Assembly (NCBI GenBank): GCA_903870245.1
Contig: CAIQCB010000050.1
Span: 1-55,300 of the forward strand
Direction: 5' to 3'
From: an uncultured Methylocystaceae bacterium
GTDB lineage: Bacteria; Pseudomonadota; Alphaproteobacteria; Rhizobiales; Beijerinckiaceae
Length of the DNA: 55,300 bases
Below, piece after piece: positions 2,453 through 49,944 of this stretch (the first letter of the stretch is position 1; each line of letters opens with the position of its first letter). The position numbers were made by a program, and so were the translations under genes. Below the pieces are notes generated by a model. The model did not search any database. It saw nothing but the letters and a program-made list of their open reading frames with translations, and was not told where the DNA came from.

Positions 2453-2886
2453 GGCAGCGCCTCTTGTGGATCAGAGGCCCATGCTTTCAGAACTTACGAC
2501 ATTAATAATGATATTTTGCCATAAATAATGTAGCTGTGTGATCTTGCTTCGCCCTTCCGGCGATCAGCGCAACCTCACGCCATCGGCCTGTAATCCGTCG
2601 ACGATGTGCGAGAGTGTTTGCGTCCTTGCTTTTGCGGGCCGCTCTGGTCCCTGACCTCGTCATGTTATGCGCAAAAATACAACCGAGGCGCTGCGGCCCG
2701 TCCTCGCTTTAGACTCATTGACACGATGATAAACCGCCCGCGCATTTTGTTCGAAGGTTTCGACTTTTCGAATAGCGGCGCCTTCGATGGACTCGCCAAT
2801 CTCAAGCACCGCCTTCGCTTCGGTGTTGTCGTCGGGCGGTCACGGCGCCACAATCGCTGGCATAAACCTTTCATGGAGAGACCTGA
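2453..2886. other. Gene-poor stretch, nothing recognised
   Basis: The open frames here have neither recognisable composition nor a good ribosome binding site. The first part is AT-rich and the second part GC-rich, which could mean mixed debris. A good Shine-Dalgarno (GGAGAGACCTGA) at the right edge belongs to the next gene. Confidence 0.4.
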
Positions 2887-3114
2887 ATGTTCGAAAATGC
2901 GAACCGGATCGCGCCGTGGATTATCGCCACCGGCATATGGGCGAATCTGGGTCTAGCGATTTATGGCGGCGTTGAGGCCCGGACGATCAACGCCGAATTT
3001 ACGAAAGCGCTTCAGTCAGTGGCTGCGATCAAAACCGACGTGAGGGCTCTTGAATCAGACCTTTCGAGTTTTCGCTATCTCACCTGTATTCGCCATCGCA
3101 TTTGCCCCCGCTAA
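2887..3114 (+). CDS. Small membrane protein of unknown function
   Basis: The product is 75 residues. GGAGAG lies 6 bases before the ATG. The N-terminal part (IAPWIIATGIWANLGLAIYGG) forms one likely membrane helix. It is followed by a polar, probably helical segment (TINAEFTKALQSVAAIKTD). The last 15 residues (RYLTCIRHRICPR) look unlike the rest, so the true end may have been altered by a frameshift. The arrangement of one helix plus a short coiled coil is seen in many small accessory membrane proteins. I do not recognise a family. Confidence 0.5.
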   Translation: MFENANRIAPWIIATGIWANLGLAIYGGVEARTINAEFTKALQSVAAIKTDVRALESDLSSFRYLTCIRHRICPR

Positions 3115-3285
3115 AGAATAACCTGGTCTGATTGAGTCAGGGAGGATTCTGGTCTTTTGTTAGGTTGCGATTTTTTTCGCAGAAACGGTTTCCTCTTCGG
3201 CGATAAGCGAACTCAGGCGCTGCGTTCATTTAACAATGGCTCCCGAAGATCTCGGGCGCCAGAAGCGTCAGTCGTTCTCACCCAG

Positions 3286-3316
3286 AAAAAAACCGCCCTG
3301 TCTTTGAACAGGGCGG
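3286..3316 (-). terminator. Intrinsic terminator of the 3348-3746 gene
   Basis: On the minus strand CCGCCCTG pairs with CAGGGCGG around an 8-base loop and is followed by seven Ts (the A run at 3286-3292). It lies 31 bases after the stop codon of the secreted-protein gene. Confidence 0.85.
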
Positions 3317-3347
3317 CCATCGCGTCGCGCCGGGCGGATGTTGTCGA

Positions 3348-3746
3348 CTAATGAACCTCCCCGCCAGGGCTCTTGGCGGACTCTGCGGCCTGAGCCGGAG
3401 CTTCCTTGCCGCTGGCTCCTTTACCCTTGAGCAAATTGGCCTTGAGTGACTTGGTTGATAGTGACTTCCCCTTGAGCGACTTGCTCTGCTTCAAGGACTC
3501 ACGCGCCTGTTCCAGAGCTTTCTTGCGGTTTTTAACGCTATCGACCGCATTGGGTGCAGCATCCGTCGCCGCTGTTCCTGCGTCTGTCGCGCCAGCGGCG
3601 GCTCCGGCGGCCGCTCTGGCGGCGTCGGCGCCGCCACCGCCAAACAGGTTGCCGAGGGACTCAAGCCCGGGCGTCTGGGCCAGCGCAGATGACGAAATCC
3701 ATACCAGGGCAAGTCCGACGCCCATCATCAATATTCTTCGCGACAT
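3348..3746 (-). CDS. Secreted low-complexity Ala/Gly- and Lys/Ser-rich protein
   Basis: The product is 132 residues. I start it at ATG 3746, because GGAGAT lies just upstream and the N-terminus then becomes a clean signal peptide (MSRRILMMGVGLALVWISSS, cut after ALA-Q). An upstream in-frame start would bury the signal. After cleavage come a Gly-rich patch (NLFGGGG) and an Ala-rich segment. The C-terminal half is basic and quasi-repetitive, with recurring SLK/KSL units (SKSLKGKSLSTKSLKANLLK). The composition suggests a disordered cationic exported protein, perhaps binding the cell wall or a polyanion. I recognise no family. An intrinsic terminator follows. Confidence 0.7.
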   Translation of the reverse strand: MSRRILMMGVGLALVWISSSALAQTPGLESLGNLFGGGGADAARAAAGAAAGATDAGTAATDAAPNAVDSVKNRKKALEQARESLKQSKSLKGKSLSTKSLKANLLKGKGASGKEAPAQAAESAKSPGGEVH

Positions 3747-3864
3747 GGGGCGGATCTCCAGAATTTCTCGTGCTTCAGGGGGCATCGCCGAAAACGGCAT
3801 TGCCAGGATCGTCAAATGAGACTGCTCCGGCGGGCGATTGCGCAGGCTATTGAACAAAAAATTA

Positions 3865-3896
3865 CCGCCAGCGTAAGGAACGCTGGCGGTTTTTTT
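3865..3896. terminator. Bidirectional intrinsic terminator
   Basis: CCGCCAGCG (3865-3873) pairs with CGCTGGCGG (3881-3889) around TAAGGAA. Seven Ts follow on the plus strand, and TAATTTTTTG follows on the minus strand. No plus-strand gene precedes it, so its likely client is the small peptide gene at 4027-4098. Confidence 0.75.
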
Positions 3897-4026
3897 ATTG
3901 GGCGACCTGACTCTTGAATATTCAAGAGCCATGAATTCATCTGCTACAAGATTTGTCGCCTTATAGGCGACCATGCAGCTGCATCACATCCGGTTGGTCA
4001 CCAAACCGAATGAGCCTGATCTGTGA

Positions 4027-4098
4027 TCAGAGACGCGTCAGAGTAACAGCAGCGATAACGACCATAGCGACCATAGCTGCGGGAACGAGCCAACCCAT
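4027..4098 (-). CDS. 23-residue single-helix membrane peptide
   Basis: A very strong Shine-Dalgarno (GGGAGGT) stands 4 bases before ATG 4098. The peptide begins MGWLVPAAMVAMVVIAAVTL and ends TRL before TGA at 4027. It is one hydrophobic helix with a short basic tail, the pattern of small regulatory membrane peptides and of some toxin peptides. A bidirectional terminator lies 130 bases downstream. The ribosome binding site and the terminator are the main evidence that it is expressed. No family is recognised. Confidence 0.5.
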   Translation of the reverse strand: MGWLVPAAMVAMVVIAAVTLTRL

Positions 4099-4209
4099 AG
4101 TAACCTCCCATTTAGATGCCGAAGAGCGTCGATTCTTGTTAACGGCCAAAGCCGTAGGGGCAGATTCACCGAACCCGCGAGAGTTTGTCAAGTGCTCGTG
4201 ATAAATCAT

Positions 4210-4834
4210 TGATTATAATAATTAATCTATTTGTGAGGCAGGAGCTTCGCCACCCCTCGGCGGACAGGGATTCCTTACTTCCCTGGCGGGATCGAAAAAA
4301 TCGGGTCGATAATGCGTGAACCGGTTACCGATGTTCAGGCCCATATTTTCGCCCGCGATCATGCGCCTGCGCCGCGCGAGACGCCTCGGCCGATCAGGGC
4401 GTCGGCGAAGAGATATCGACCAGAAGCAATATTCCGGGTCCCCGCGCTCCCCCGATTATTGGCTGCTTTAACGGCTGTCGCCGGGAGTCCGTTCGAGGTC
4501 CGCGGCGATGTTTTTTCCCGCAGATAAACGCATCTACTGAGTTTCGGCGCGACCGCCAATCAACAAGCCGGCATCAGCGCGGCGATTGATAATCAAATGG
4601 CCGAGATGGGCCAGAGCGCACCCGGCGGACGCTATTCAATGGCCCTTGGCTTCTGCGGATTATCGCAGGAGAAGGCTTTCTTTGGCTCTGAGAGTCGCGC
4701 TTCGCTCCGGGCGTTTGTTCGCTGGCGCAGGTTTTGGCGCATAGGCCCGGATTCGCCCTGCGATCCATCATGCTCAACAGTCACAACGCATCGGCGTTTT
4801 ATCTGTCGCGCGTCATCTCGTTTTTATGTTGCAT
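4210..4834. other. Gene-free stretch with possible decayed coding sequence
   Basis: No intact gene is supported here. On the plus strand, one frame from about 4528 to 4740 reads like protein sequence (for example AGISAAIDNQMAEM and SAPGGRYSMALGF). It opens right after a stop and has no start with a ribosome binding site. It could be the remnant of a YadA-anchor-like domain; see the findings. The remainder shows nothing I can name. Confidence 0.3.
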
Positions 4835-6196
4835 TTACGCTGGTTCGATTTTCAGAGGCAGTCCATTTTTGGCGCGCAACGTGAGATTTGTAGCCAGTTC
4901 GATCCGATGGCCGGGAAGTATCGAAAAACGAAAACTGCGCACCAGAATCGCCAGAATGACCGTCATTTCCAGCATGGCGAAGTTCATTCCGATACAAATA
5001 CGCGGACCGGCTCCAAATGGCAGATAGGCGCAACGATGACGGCTTTTCGTCCGTTCCGGCGAAAACCGGTCTGGATCGAAACCATGAGGATGATCCCAGA
5101 GCTTTTCGTGACGATGAACGCACCAGCCGGCGATGATCGCGAGTTCGCCGGCGCGCAGATGATGCGGTCCGATTTTGATGTCCTCGATGGGCGCGCGACC
5201 AACGCCAATCGCCGGCGGGAATAGTCGCATGGATTCCTGAAGGGTCTGACGCGTGAAGGTCAGATTATTGATGTTCTCGACGGTGATGTCGTGTTTGCCG
5301 ACAACGAACTCGACCTCATCGCGCAGCCGCTGTTGCGATGTCTGGTCATGCGCCAAAAGCCACAAAGTCCATGCCAGCGCCGTCGCCGAGGTTTCGTGAC
5401 CGGCGATCATGAAGGTGTACAGGTTCGAAATCAGTTCCTCATCATTCATGACGCGGCCTGTTTCCGGGTCCTGGGCGGATAACAGCAGGCTCAGTATATC
5501 ATCGGCGTCGATACCCGAGACGCGGCGCTGCGCGACAAGCCCGGATATGGCGCGATGAAGCCAGTGAACGCTTTCAGCCACGCGTCCAGATCCCGGAAAG
5601 GGCAGGAACCGCGGCGCCCCGATCCGGGCGTAGAGAAATCGCCAGGCGATAGTTGAGAGAGAGGGATTGATGGCGGCAAGAAATTTATTGCGGTCCAAAT
5701 CTTGCGCGCCCGGACCGAGCACAGCTGTCAAAATGATGTCGAAAGTGACCCGCGACATTGCCGGCGCGACATCGAAGATCGCATCGCGTGGGGCCTGTCG
5801 CCACTCTGAAACCAGTGACTCAGCGCATTTCACGAATGTCGGCGTCAACGCCCGCAGCTTGTCGTGACGGAAGGCCGGCGACGCGGCGCGACGCTGCCAG
5901 CGCCAGTCGGCCCCCTCGGCGAAGAACAAGCTTTGACGATTGACGATATTTGACAGCGCTCGCGTCTGAAAGAGATCGCGCCTGAATTTCTCCGGTCTGG
6001 CGATGAGGATTTCCTCGATCACAGACGGATCGGTCAATAAAAGCGTCCGGGGCAGGATTGGCCAGACGCCTCTCATGATCGCGTATTCGTCGCGATAGGC
6101 CTGCGGCGGCCAATTCTCGATCATGTTCGACGCCGCCGCCCGCATCGAGGGACGCTCGCGCGGTGTAAAGGGCATCAAATCCGGATGATGATACAT
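4835..6196 (-). CDS. Cytochrome P450
   Basis: The product is a full-length P450 of 453 residues. Diagnostic elements are present in order: the C-helix WxxxR region (ADWRWQRR), the I-helix oxygen-activation motif AGHETSA near residue 265, the K-helix ExxR (ESMR), and the heme-thiolate loop FGAGPRICIG with its cysteine near 401. These enzymes use molecular oxygen and two electrons to hydroxylate a substrate. The electron donor and substrate are not indicated by neighbours, since no ferredoxin or reductase gene is adjacent. No signal peptide is seen, so it is probably cytosolic. It lies 28 bases downstream of ychF on the same strand and may be co-transcribed. Overall the sequence resembles the large group of bacterial P450s related to CYP families that act on fatty acids or terpenoids, but I cannot assign a subfamily. 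Confidence 0.93.
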   Translation of the reverse strand: MYHHPDLMPFTPRERPSMRAAASNMIENWPPQAYRDEYAIMRGVWPILPRTLLLTDPSVIEEILIARPEKFRRDLFQTRALSNIVNRQSLFFAEGADWRWQRRAASPAFRHDKLRALTPTFVKCAESLVSEWRQAPRDAIFDVAPAMSRVTFDIILTAVLGPGAQDLDRNKFLAAINPSLSTIAWRFLYARIGAPRFLPFPGSGRVAESVHWLHRAISGLVAQRRVSGIDADDILSLLLSAQDPETGRVMNDEELISNLYTFMIAGHETSATALAWTLWLLAHDQTSQQRLRDEVEFVVGKHDITVENINNLTFTRQTLQESMRLFPPAIGVGRAPIEDIKIGPHHLRAGELAIIAGWCVHRHEKLWDHPHGFDPDRFSPERTKSRHRCAYLPFGAGPRICIGMNFAMLEMTVILAILVRSFRFSILPGHRIELATNLTLRAKNGLPLKIEPA

Positions 6197-6224
6197 CAGG
6201 CTTTGGCGAAGCTTGTTTCGTCTG

Positions 6225-7322
6225 TCAGGTATTGAAGCGGAAATGCATCACATCGCCATCGGCGACAAGATAGTCCTTGCCCTCCAGCCGTAGACGTCCA
6301 GCGTCGCGTGCGCCAGCCTCGCCCTTATGCGCGATGTAATCCTCATAGGCGATGGTTTCGGCCCGGATGAAGCCTTTCTCGAAATCCGTATGGATGACCC
6401 CGGCCGCTTGCGGCGCGCGGGTGCCCGTCTCGATGGTCCATGCGCGCGCTTCCTTCGGGCCGACGGTGAAATAGGTGATCAGATGCAACAGATTGTAGCC
6501 GGCGCGAATGACGCGGTTGAGACCTGGCTCGTCGAGTCCGACGGCTTCAAGATAATCCTTTTGCTCATCTCCCGGGAGCACGGCGATCTCACTCTCGATT
6601 TTCGCCGAGACCACAACCGCTGCGGCGCCTTCCTCTGCAGCGCGGGTCGAGACTTTGGCGGCATTGACATTGCCTTCAGCTGCGGCGGCCTCCTCGACGT
6701 TGCAGACATAGAGCACAGGTTTTGACGACAGCAGGCCAAGGCCAACAAAGGCGATACGCTCATCTTCGGAGACTTTCGCCAATCGGGCCGGCTTACCGTC
6801 GCGCAGCAGAACAAGGCAGCGATTCATCAGATCAACGAGTTCTTTCGCCTCTTTGTCGCCGCCCTTTGCCTTCTTCTCCAGCGATACGACACGCTTTTCA
6901 AGACCTTCGAGATCGGCGAGCATAAGTTCGGTCTCTATGGTCTCGATATCGCGCAGCGGATCGACGCCGCCCTCGACGTGGGTGACGTCGCCGTCCTCGA
7001 AACAGCGCACGACATGGGCGATGGCGTCGCACTCCCGGATGTTGGCGAGAAACTGGTTGCCGAGGCCCTCGCCCTTCGAGGCACCGCGAACGAGTCCGGC
7101 GATATCGACGAAGGTCAGGCGCGTCGGGATGATCTGCTTCGAGCCTGCGATTTCCGCCAGCGCGTCAAGACGCGGATCAGGCACCGCGACTTCACCGACA
7201 TTGGGCTCGATCGTGCAAAACGGATAATTGGCGGCCTGTGCCGCAGCCGTTTGGGTGAGAGCGTTGAAAAGCGTCGATTTTCCGACATTCGGCAGGCCGA
7301 CGATGCCGCATTTGAAACCCAT
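6225..7322 (-). CDS. ychF: Redox-regulated ATPase/GTPase YchF
   Basis: The product is 365 residues, the usual family length, when started at ATG 7322. The open frame extends further upstream, but that extension is not conserved-looking. The chain begins [19 protein letters not shown], an OBG-type G1 motif. G3 follows as [20 protein letters not shown]. The C-terminal TGS-like domain ends with [17 protein letters not shown], which is nearly invariant in the family. YchF binds the ribosome, hydrolyses ATP in preference to GTP, and negatively affects oxidative stress responses in other bacteria. The P450 gene lies immediately downstream. Confidence 0.95.
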
Positions 7323-46320: not shown

Positions 46321-46669
46321 ATGCGTTTTCCTTTCGAGTGGCATGCGGTGAGCGAGTTCAGTCTGTTTGAGCCAATTCGTTGATCTTATGCGTAGCGCCG
46401 GCCACTTTTGTTTTATGCCGGCTTTGGGGTTGCTTCATATTTTGCGATTCTTTTTGTCGCCGCGAGACCCGGAGCGCATCGAGATTTCTCGATGCATCAA
46501 AAAAATGAGCGCATCGAGACCGATGTCCGAAAGAACTCTCGGATTGCGGCTGAAACACTCTCCGGACTTTGGCGCATTATCTGTCCTTTTGGCGCGCCAT
46601 CGATGATTGATCGGGACCCAACCGGCTAAAACTCAATTTGGGCGAATTAATGCGGCGGCGATCAGATAA

Positions 46670-46785
46670 TGATTGATTATGGTGCAATGCACAATTAACT
46701 TTGTCCTGCTCGAAGTGAGACTTTTTCCTCGAGCATTCCCTCCCTTGACTTGGGCCGCCGGGCGACCGGCGGTCTCTTTTTTGTC
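46670..46785 (+). ncRNA. Candidate AbcR/alpha-r15-like sRNA, copy A
   Basis: The 3' part has three elements. A hairpin TGCTCGA (46707-46713)/TCGAGCA (46729-46735) has a 15-base loop. An unpaired CU-rich stretch follows, TTCCCTCCCTTGACTTGG. Then comes a GC-rich terminator stem (46753-46774, GNRA-type loop) with a T run at 46777-46782. Copy B at 47355-47500 repeats the same order and shares the linker and terminator sequence, while the first stem differs in sequence but keeps its pairing. The 5' end is not defined; 46670 is an estimate. Confidence 0.6.
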
Positions 46786-46994
46786 CGCCGGACGAGCGCC
46801 TGATTATAGCGGCTATGACGCAGGCATCGGCCTGCCTTGTGCCTGAAGATCATTGTATTTCAATAGCTTGAATTCTTTTGTTGGGATTGTTTCGTCACAT
46901 GTCGGCCAATGACGTCTCCCGTTTGGGAAGGCAGTTTCCTTGCATGTATATAATCGATCCGCTTCGTTCTCCGATACTCCGGGAGGCCCTGCCA

Positions 46995-47333
46995 ATGCCG
47001 ATGTTCAAGCTGCCGCTCTCTGGAGACGTAACCCAGTCGATCAATCCGTGGACAGCGATCTTTAGCCCGACCGGAGGCCAGTGGAGCCTCGTCAATATTA
47101 TTATCGGCCAATCGAGCGCACCACAGATCGAGGCTGATGTGCTCACCGATGTCGCCGGCTACGGCAAGCAGCTCGGGCGCATCGGCGACGCGGTGAAGGT
47201 GCTTTTGAAGCATCTGCCGAAGGACTCCCGCCTGACGCCTGAGGAGCGCGCCGCCATCCAGGCTTTCGAGCAGATGTTTTCCGATATTGAGGCGGTGAAG
47301 CGACGGCGCCGCTGCGAAGGGTCGACGTCCTGA
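46995..47333 (+). CDS. Hypothetical protein between the two sRNA candidates
   Basis: The product is 112 residues from ATG 46995, preceded by GGGAGG about 9 bases upstream. There is no signal peptide or membrane helix. The first half is mixed (FKLPLSGDVTQSINPWTAIF), with two aromatic-rich short segments. The second half is helical and charged (DVAGYGKQLGRIGDAVKVLL, TPEERAAIQAFEQMFSDIEA) and ends in an Arg cluster (KRRRRCEGSTS). I do not recognise a family, though similar short proteins seem common in Hyphomicrobiales. The second sRNA candidate begins within about 25 bases of its stop codon. Confidence 0.7.
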   Translation: MPMFKLPLSGDVTQSINPWTAIFSPTGGQWSLVNIIIGQSSAPQIEADVLTDVAGYGKQLGRIGDAVKVLLKHLPKDSRLTPEERAAIQAFEQMFSDIEAVKRRRRCEGSTS

Positions 47334-47354
47334 GGTCGCAGACGCGCCGGTGTG

Positions 47355-47500
47355 GCAAAAAAGTCACAGGTGAACGAATTGATCGAGACATGCGGTTTTC
47401 GCCACAATTCGGCCGGGCGAGCCCGCCAATTTCCCTCCACGCCTCCTTGGCGTTCCTCCCTAGACTTGGACCGCCGGCCTGTTCGGCGGTCTTTTTCTTT
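47355..47500 (+). ncRNA. Candidate AbcR/alpha-r15-like sRNA, copy B
   Basis: Same architecture as copy A. The stem CGCCAA (47424-47429)/TTGGCG (47447-47452) encloses a 17-base CU-rich loop (TTTCCCTCC...CTCC). A linker TTCCTCCCTAGACTTGG follows. The terminator GACCGCCG/CGGCGGTC (47469-47491) ends with TTTTTCTTT. Two anti-Shine-Dalgarno-like motifs, one in the loop and one in the linker, are what AbcR-family sRNAs of Rhizobiales carry, usually in tandem copies. The 5' boundary is an estimate. Confidence 0.62.
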
Positions 47501-47546
47501 GGGGACGGGCAGTCAGGAGCCGGCAAGCAGCGGCCGGGAGGTTGGC

Positions 47547-47861
47547 ATGATTGGAAAAATCGTCGCGACGCTCATTGTGATCAGCGGTCAGGGCGGCAAC
47601 ATCGCCTCGACCTATCATCAAAGCTGGGCTGCCTGTCAGGCCGCACGCGCCGCTTTGCCTGACGGCGGATACGACAAGGTGGAGTTGACAGCGCTGAAGC
47701 CCGAAGAGGCCGCCAGCCACAAAATTTCTGATCTCCCGCCCAATGTGACGTTGTTCGTTCAGAAAAAAGACCGGCGTCCGGTTGCCTGGGCCTTTTGTGT
47801 GCCACAGGGCAATCTCTCAGAGGACGGATCGCAGAATCTCCCCTCGCAACCCGGAAAGTGA
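47547..47861 (+). CDS. Hypothetical protein downstream of sRNA copy B
   Basis: The product is 104 residues from ATG 47547, preceded by GGGAGG. The N-terminus (MIGKIVATLIVISGQGGNIA) is weakly hydrophobic and could be a signal or anchor. The remainder is polar with two cysteines (HQSWAACQAARAALPDGGYD, RRPVAWAFCVPQGNLSEDG). It begins 47 bases after the terminator of sRNA copy B, so it may depend on read-through or its own promoter. It converges with the glucan biosynthesis gene. No family is recognised. Confidence 0.65.
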   Translation: MIGKIVATLIVISGQGGNIASTYHQSWAACQAARAALPDGGYDKVELTALKPEEAASHKISDLPPNVTLFVQKKDRRPVAWAFCVPQGNLSEDGSQNLPSQPGK

Positions 47862-49802: not shown

Positions 49803-49944
49803 CCTGCTCTACCCTGCGGGTTGCGGCTGCGCCGCACCAAAGTTGGTGCTAGCGCAAAGACCCGCGTCGCGCAATGTTTGCGATAGAACTGAACCAGGGG
49901 TGATCTTTGTCGAAATGCAAAACCGTTCACCCTGCGTAACCGAG

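Follow-up and report, generated by a model that had tools for sequence, protein, structure and literature searches.

In Sinorhizobium meliloti, carbon and nitrogen signals enter one promoter, that of mmgR, the gene for a small RNA (sRNA) of the suhB/MmgR (alpha-r8, RF00519) family. As far as the consulted excerpts of the papers cited here go, mmgR is present there in a single copy (PMC12559287) and is bound and repressed by PhaR/AniA (PMC12542648), which in Sinorhizobium acts via a dyad between -35 and -10 (PMC8401924). Caulobacter crescentus has several siblings of this family, SisA-SisD, which have one seed, unrelated, separate promoters and dispersed genes with no common upstream motif described in the excerpts; SisA represses mRNAs using that same seed, the family 10-mer pairing upstream of the start codon and repressing translation with Hfq, and adjacent alpha-r8 genes have already been reported (all PMC12559287). 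In the case of AbcR1/AbcR2 (alpha-r15, RF02345), the siblings stand in tandem, carry anti-Shine-Dalgarno motifs and have a promoter each; their family is described in the available part of a review as partly homologous to suhB (PMC7143759).

The window analyzed here (the whole 55,300-nucleotide stretch of contig CAIQCB010000050.1, from an uncultured Methylocystaceae bacterium) contains, 0.7 kb apart and both on the + strand, the two intergenic elements that a sequence-only reading had pointed out, and the architecture it ascribed to them, i.e., a hairpin at the 5′ end, then a CU-rich linker with GACTTGG as its last letters, and a terminator that is rich in GC and has a T tract, was recovered in both copies. 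The two, hereafter A and B, are very probably tandem sibling alpha-r8 sRNA genes with terminators and, most likely, promoters of their own, A being most likely repressed by PhaR. Family membership and predicted fold are established by computation, as are the conservation of the two genes, that of two different motifs upstream of them, and the presence of both RNAs in a relative that lacks the intervening protein gene (Table 1).

Against RF00519, A scored 43.5 bits (46720-46789) and B 44.2 bits (47433-47507), which places both over the gathering score of 41, and the nine other rows of a permissive Rfam scan were each under their own cut-off (the best being anti-hemB, with 24.3 vs 49.5 bits). 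The weak 5′ hairpin, single-stranded 10-mer UUUCCUCCCU and Rho-independent terminator by which suhB/MmgR sRNAs are recognized are present in A and B, whose seeds are each one base off the 10-mer, and the two resemble MmgR in Rfam family, length class, seed and terminator. An N-formylglutamate amidohydrolase neighbor, a further mark of the family in single-copy species, was not found among the seven neighbor proteins scanned, which is not disqualifying for extra copies, because in Caulobacter the linkage holds for sisA alone, the three other siblings lying elsewhere, according to the excerpted text (PMC12559287). The pattern of cuckoo RNAs (at least three hairpins with CCUCCUCCC loops) is not seen either, there being two hairpins and no CCUCCUCCC in A or B. 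A and B are, in short, new members of a known sRNA family, suhB/MmgR, which differ from MmgR in copy number (five copies here, two of them in tandem, vs the single one in S. meliloti), in the longer, U-rich first loop of A and in the other promoter type of B.

Table 1. Features of the tandem suhB/MmgR locus and related loci (positions are those of the window unless a contig or locus is given)
Feature	Position	Strand	Basis or remark
-35-like TTGATT of A	46673..46678	+	read from sequence
Predicted PhaR (AniA) operator TGCAATGCACAA	46683..46694	+	exact match to consensus TGCRNYGCASMA (PMC6201568, excerpt)
Degenerate -10-like TAACTT of A	46696..46701	+	17 nt after -35; 3/6 to consensus
sRNA A, suhB/MmgR (alpha-r8)	46707..46785	+	Rfam match and fold; start inferred from promoter spacing and first stem base
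5′ hairpin of A, TGCTCGA/TCGAGCA, U-rich loop	46707..46735	+	folding
Seed of A, UUCCCUCCCU	46736..46745	+	9/10 to family 10-mer UUUCCUCCCU (10-mer from PMC12559287, excerpt)
Intrinsic terminator of A	46752..46782	+	terminator scan
P111, 112-aa protein gene between A and B	46995..47333	+	no match at same locus in G012
18-bp palindrome-like TGTGGCAAAAAAGTCACA upstream of B	47351..47368	+	motif scan among genus matches
TTTTCGCCACAATT, -35-like element conserved in class B promoters	47396..47409	+	upstream comparison
sRNA B, suhB/MmgR (alpha-r8)	47433..47500	+	Rfam match and fold; start taken from Rfam match
5′ hairpin of B, ACGCC/GGCGT, loop TCCTT	47439..47453	+	folding
Seed of B, GUUCCUCCCU	47452..47461	+	9/10 to family 10-mer; read from sequence
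Intrinsic terminator of B	47468..47499	+	terminator scan
Further suhB copies	G000:C43:109496-109570; G000:C57:235643-235718
phaZ-side tandem locus of G014	L092 (G014:C95), 2759-6380

Upstream of the RNAs, copy A has an exact predicted PhaR box between its -35 and -10, the placement described for mmgR (excerpts of PMC8401924 and PMC12542648), whereas copy B has none; the consensus used was derived from Bradyrhizobium (PMC6201568, excerpt), and the genome analyzed here encodes PhaR. The same exact box is found in the four orthologues of A at tandems of the A-B type, the counterpart of the -35 reading TTGAAT in one close relative (G012), TTGACT in three others (G007, G014 and G027) and TTGACA at the window genome's own copy on contig C41, while G012 reads TATATT in place of the -10-like TAACTT. 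A generic sigma-70 promoter scan returned no promoter at copy A or copy B. A survey of 61 genomes yielded 127 suhB matches (93 in 37 genus genomes and 34 elsewhere), of which 116 were taken into the promoter survey, 11 order-level ones being left out. A PhaR box lies at most 150 nt upstream of 40 of the 93 genus matches fetched, and all 40 are among the 73 scoring at least 41 bits; of the 93, none has the reversed pattern upstream, one has it downstream, and none has the box itself downstream, the corresponding figures for the 73 being 0/73 (reversed, upstream) and 0/73 (box, downstream). Outside the genus (by subtraction), the box occurs upstream of 7/23 matches and downstream of 2/23. Genome-wide, the PhaR box was matched 56 times and the reversed pattern 28 times (overlaps between opposite strands being scored separately), and three phasin-domain matches fall at two loci, each having two exact boxes upstream. 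An exact match is also present at 49828-49839 of the window, directly upstream of a minus-strand 77-aa ORF preceding mdoG.

Copy B is one of the 33 box-free matches among the 73, and upstream of it lie the 18-bp palindrome, at -82, and, at -36, a TTTCGCCAC element. The general class B pattern consists of a palindrome TGTKGY-N6-RYMACA and, downstream of it, a TTTYGCCAC element; the palindrome was found in 18/33 box-free genus matches, the element in 20/33 and both in 17/33 (one class B upstream stretch, in G019, being partly N), as opposed to 0/40 for each of the two among the box-bearing matches and 0/33 in the downstream control. As the class B patterns were drawn from these same sequences, their enrichment is partly circular, the two controls being less so. 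In a 17-base form, the palindrome matches the genome 47 times and its reversed control 16 times. The other copies of the window's genome vary in this respect: a PhaR box is present at the one on C41, a class B promoter in relaxed form at the one on C57 and neither element at the one on C43. To judge from these upstream sequences, different signals seem to control A and B. A non-exhaustive search of the literature, seen partly as excerpts, found no description of such a PhaR-box/palindrome promoter split in alpha-r8 sRNAs, and the adjacency and two recurrent promoter types seen here differ from the dispersed sis genes of Caulobacter.

At E ≤ 0.001, suhB matches were found in 56/61 genomes of the survey and in 89/101 genomes of the order, the window's own being counted in both cases, and same-strand pairs or triplets within about 1 kb occur in at least 11 of the 100 other genomes of the order (among the matches listed: G037, G054, G059, G063, G076, G082, G089, G106, G112, G119 and G122). 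Five of the six same-strand genus tandems spanning at most 1.5 kb show the A-B arrangement, in which the PhaR-type copy leads (the window's own, i.e., G000, and those in G012, G007, G014 and G027:C23); in the sixth (G027:C27), both copies are without a PhaR box and one of them, at 31.5 bits, is under the cut-off. The order varies outside the genus, the box-bearing copy coming second in G037 and neither copy having a box in G054 and G059. The gene context is not uniform: the window and the G012 locus have the order leuB-P78-LptA-like-P79-[A,B]-P104-MdoG. In the window, the closest genes on the minus strand are, to the left of the pair, the LptA-like gene and the 79-aa one (which is 90% identical in G012) and, to its right, mdoG; those on the plus strand are P111, located between A and B, and the 104-aa P104, which follows B. 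In G014, in turn, the pair is flanked by phaZ (PHB depolymerase; TIGR01849, 480 bits) and by purD, its two RNAs being separated by another small gene, and G007 and G027 have the same four proteins (phaZ 98.4/96.9% and purD 92.5/90.1% identical), so that three of the five A-B pairs adjoin phaZ and have a different small gene (of about 114-124 aa) between the sRNAs. A recurring group of weak suhB-like genus matches of 29-34 bits (e.g., G001:C83, G013:C172 and G015:C24), of the form TTTCCTCCT...CTTTTCTCCC, is possibly a separate sRNA family.

Regarding structure, the folding z-scores are -2.67 for A (46707-46788) and -4.06 for B (47424-47500), with none of 200 shuffles as stable in either case. 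Of the two first stems from which the sequence-only reading had argued for compensatory change, that of A, TGCTCGA/TCGAGCA, was borne out, but that of B was not: CGCCAA/TTGGCG (47424-47429 with 47447-47452) is present there as letters, but is, at -5.9 kcal/mol, a weaker alternative to ACGCC/GGCGT (47439-47443 with 47449-47453; -7.8 kcal/mol), and a hairpin at the latter position folds in 5/5 class B relatives shown, CGCCAA/TTGGCG not being the stem that folds there. As the stem named for the second copy is the weaker choice, comparing the first copy with the second makes no clean test of compensation, for which the orthologues of A are better suited. Among the A orthologues, taken as the first members of the A-B tandems in G012, G007, G014 and G027, the first stem reads TGCTCGA/TCGAGCA in the window, TGCTCAA/TTGGGCA in G012 and GCTCAGA/TCTGAGC in the other three, i.e., two positions are altered on both sides with the pairing kept, in five sequences that are too few for statistics. 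A stem of at least four pairs directly 5′ of the linker is found in all 73 genus matches of at least 41 bits (71 distinct sequences), with a mean score of 7.86 vs 6.55 in composition shuffles (the top of 200 shuffles being 7.13), and a CUCC-type first loop in 63/73, copy A, with its longer loop, being without it.

Three other explanations of the pair were weighed. The sequence-only reading had named the elements AbcR1/AbcR2 (alpha-r15) sRNAs repressing ABC-transporter mRNAs, for which the tandem layout, the anti-Shine-Dalgarno-like linkers and the partial homology of alpha-r15 to suhB, as given in the excerpted review (PMC7143759), can be adduced; it is this homology that accounts for the AbcR-like look of the elements. 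Its structural half, tandem structured sRNA genes with such linkers, stands, but the name had to be given up, as it is contradicted by the family's own covariance model. The Rfam scan retains only the top-scoring of overlapping clan members and suhB has a clan label, so that an ar15 row might have been hidden, and RF02345 was therefore run separately on the whole genome: the scan, which the sequence-only reading had proposed for both loci, gave nothing in the window up to E = 10, and the best match in the genome reached 15.3 bits (cut-off 40), away from the window at the C41 suhB copy. The window pair also differs in length and hairpin count (about 70-80 nt and two predicted hairpins vs 114-120 nt and three) and in gene context, since the AbcR tandem lies beside lsrB, whereas the scanned neighbors here are LeuB, the LptA-like protein, MdoG and small family-less proteins, with no LsrB or other LysR-type regulator among the seven. 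An AbcR identity is, on this evidence, highly improbable.

The idea that the hairpins are mere transcription terminators of neighboring protein genes draws on the strong intrinsic terminator ending both elements and on the position of B downstream of P111, whose transcript it could end, and that same position has made us consider B as a 3′-UTR-derived sRNA cut from the P111 transcript without a promoter of its own, its Rfam match beginning, on the same strand, 99 nt past the stop codon of P111 and no clear -10 being visible for it. The G012 locus contradicts the terminators-only reading and weighs against the 3′-UTR one: about 520 bp including P111 are missing there, yet both RNAs and both upstream motifs are kept in the alignment, B with the same palindrome and -35-like element. 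By blastn, the region 46341-47560 is collinear with that locus only in the blocks 46628-46781 (74.7%) and 47395-47500 (79.1%), each of which spans an RNA and its upstream motif (in the case of A the whole motif, in that of B the -35-like element), the only additional matches being two cross-matches between A and B. Moreover, neither the seed nor the 5′ hairpin is part of the terminator, and the likely genes directly left of A (79-aa and LptA-like) are on the minus strand, although short plus-strand ORFs are present there as well. The terminator explanation has, on balance, very little credibility; the joint occurrence of palindrome and -35-like element in half of the box-free genus matches argues in the same way against a processed B, an origin we deem unlikely, if somewhat less so.

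P111 itself is conserved in Alpha- and Betaproteobacteria with a motif YGKQLGRI, had no Pfam or NCBIfam match, no PHROGs match at E ≤ 0.1 and nothing better than E = 0.083 in a profile search of solved structures, and is patchily distributed (11/39 genus genomes, the window's own included, two of the 39 being outside the 61-genome suhB survey; 42 loci including Betaproteobacteria). Given this patchiness and its absence from the G012 locus, the insertion or loss of P111 looks incidental to the sRNAs. Links of P111 by neighborhood to suhB or to PHB were tried and rejected: 21/52 P111 loci (own left out) have only core look-alikes, at up to two mismatches, and a PhaR box occurs somewhere in 9/52. 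One of these nine is the locus of Rhizobium sp. C1 (L067), whose box, at 4895-4909, precedes the P111 homologue by 92 nt.

With A and B taken as sibling alpha-r8 genes, a mechanism may be proposed in which each copy would give rise to an RNA some 70-80 nt long that, helped by Hfq, would pair through its single-stranded UUCCCUCCCU (A) or UUCCUCCCU (B) with purine-rich ribosome binding sites and repress translation. PhaR would occupy the predicted operator of copy A and repress it until, with PHB accumulating, it moved to the granules; copy A would then be made and would damp phasin and other mRNAs, as proposed for MmgR in Sinorhizobium, and copy B would supply an almost identical seed in response to another signal, via the 18-bp palindrome. 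The tandem might accordingly constitute a conserved two-input device, its upstream sibling reading PHB via PhaR and its downstream one a second signal via the palindrome and an unusual promoter, a proposal that we put forward tentatively and at somewhat less than even odds.

As for targets, near-perfect ones for the seed were looked for as AGGGAGGAA-N(1-10)-ATG, which has no match across the genome. When predicted duplexes at phasin starts were ranked against 59 background starts, crudely called, copy B with the 119-aa phasin of contig C13 ranked 5/60, with a 7-nt match GAGGAAC over the ribosome site (4/59 background starts pair with B equally well or better, and GAGGAAC occurs in 0/59), but phasin pairing is weak otherwise, copy A ranking 27/60 with the same gene; the second C13 phasin gene ranked 39/60 (A) and 50/60 (B) and the C41 phasin 16/60 (A) and 30/60 (B). 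The ribosome sites of P111 and P104 are both GGGAGG, which 1/59 of the crudely called starts has, and their duplex ranks of 59 are 13 (A) and 4 (B) for P111 and 7 (A) and 6 (B) for P104, a pattern noticed after the fact; the P104 site is not retained in G012, and local targeting of these two genes is suggestive only. The phasin, P111 and P104 pairings, predicted as they are, may serve as leads rather than targets.

The suhB/MmgR family helps to manage stored carbon, and the pair described here is ordinary in kind, the point of interest being the input split between siblings. If the two-input device is true, two genes in this genus may do what one mmgR promoter does in S. meliloti. The link between PhaR and MmgR-type sRNAs in carbon storage would be extended to another genus, with a promoter code that is readable from the sequence, and, as many copies here fall into two promoter types, the genus offers a natural test of why bacteria retain several near-identical sRNAs.
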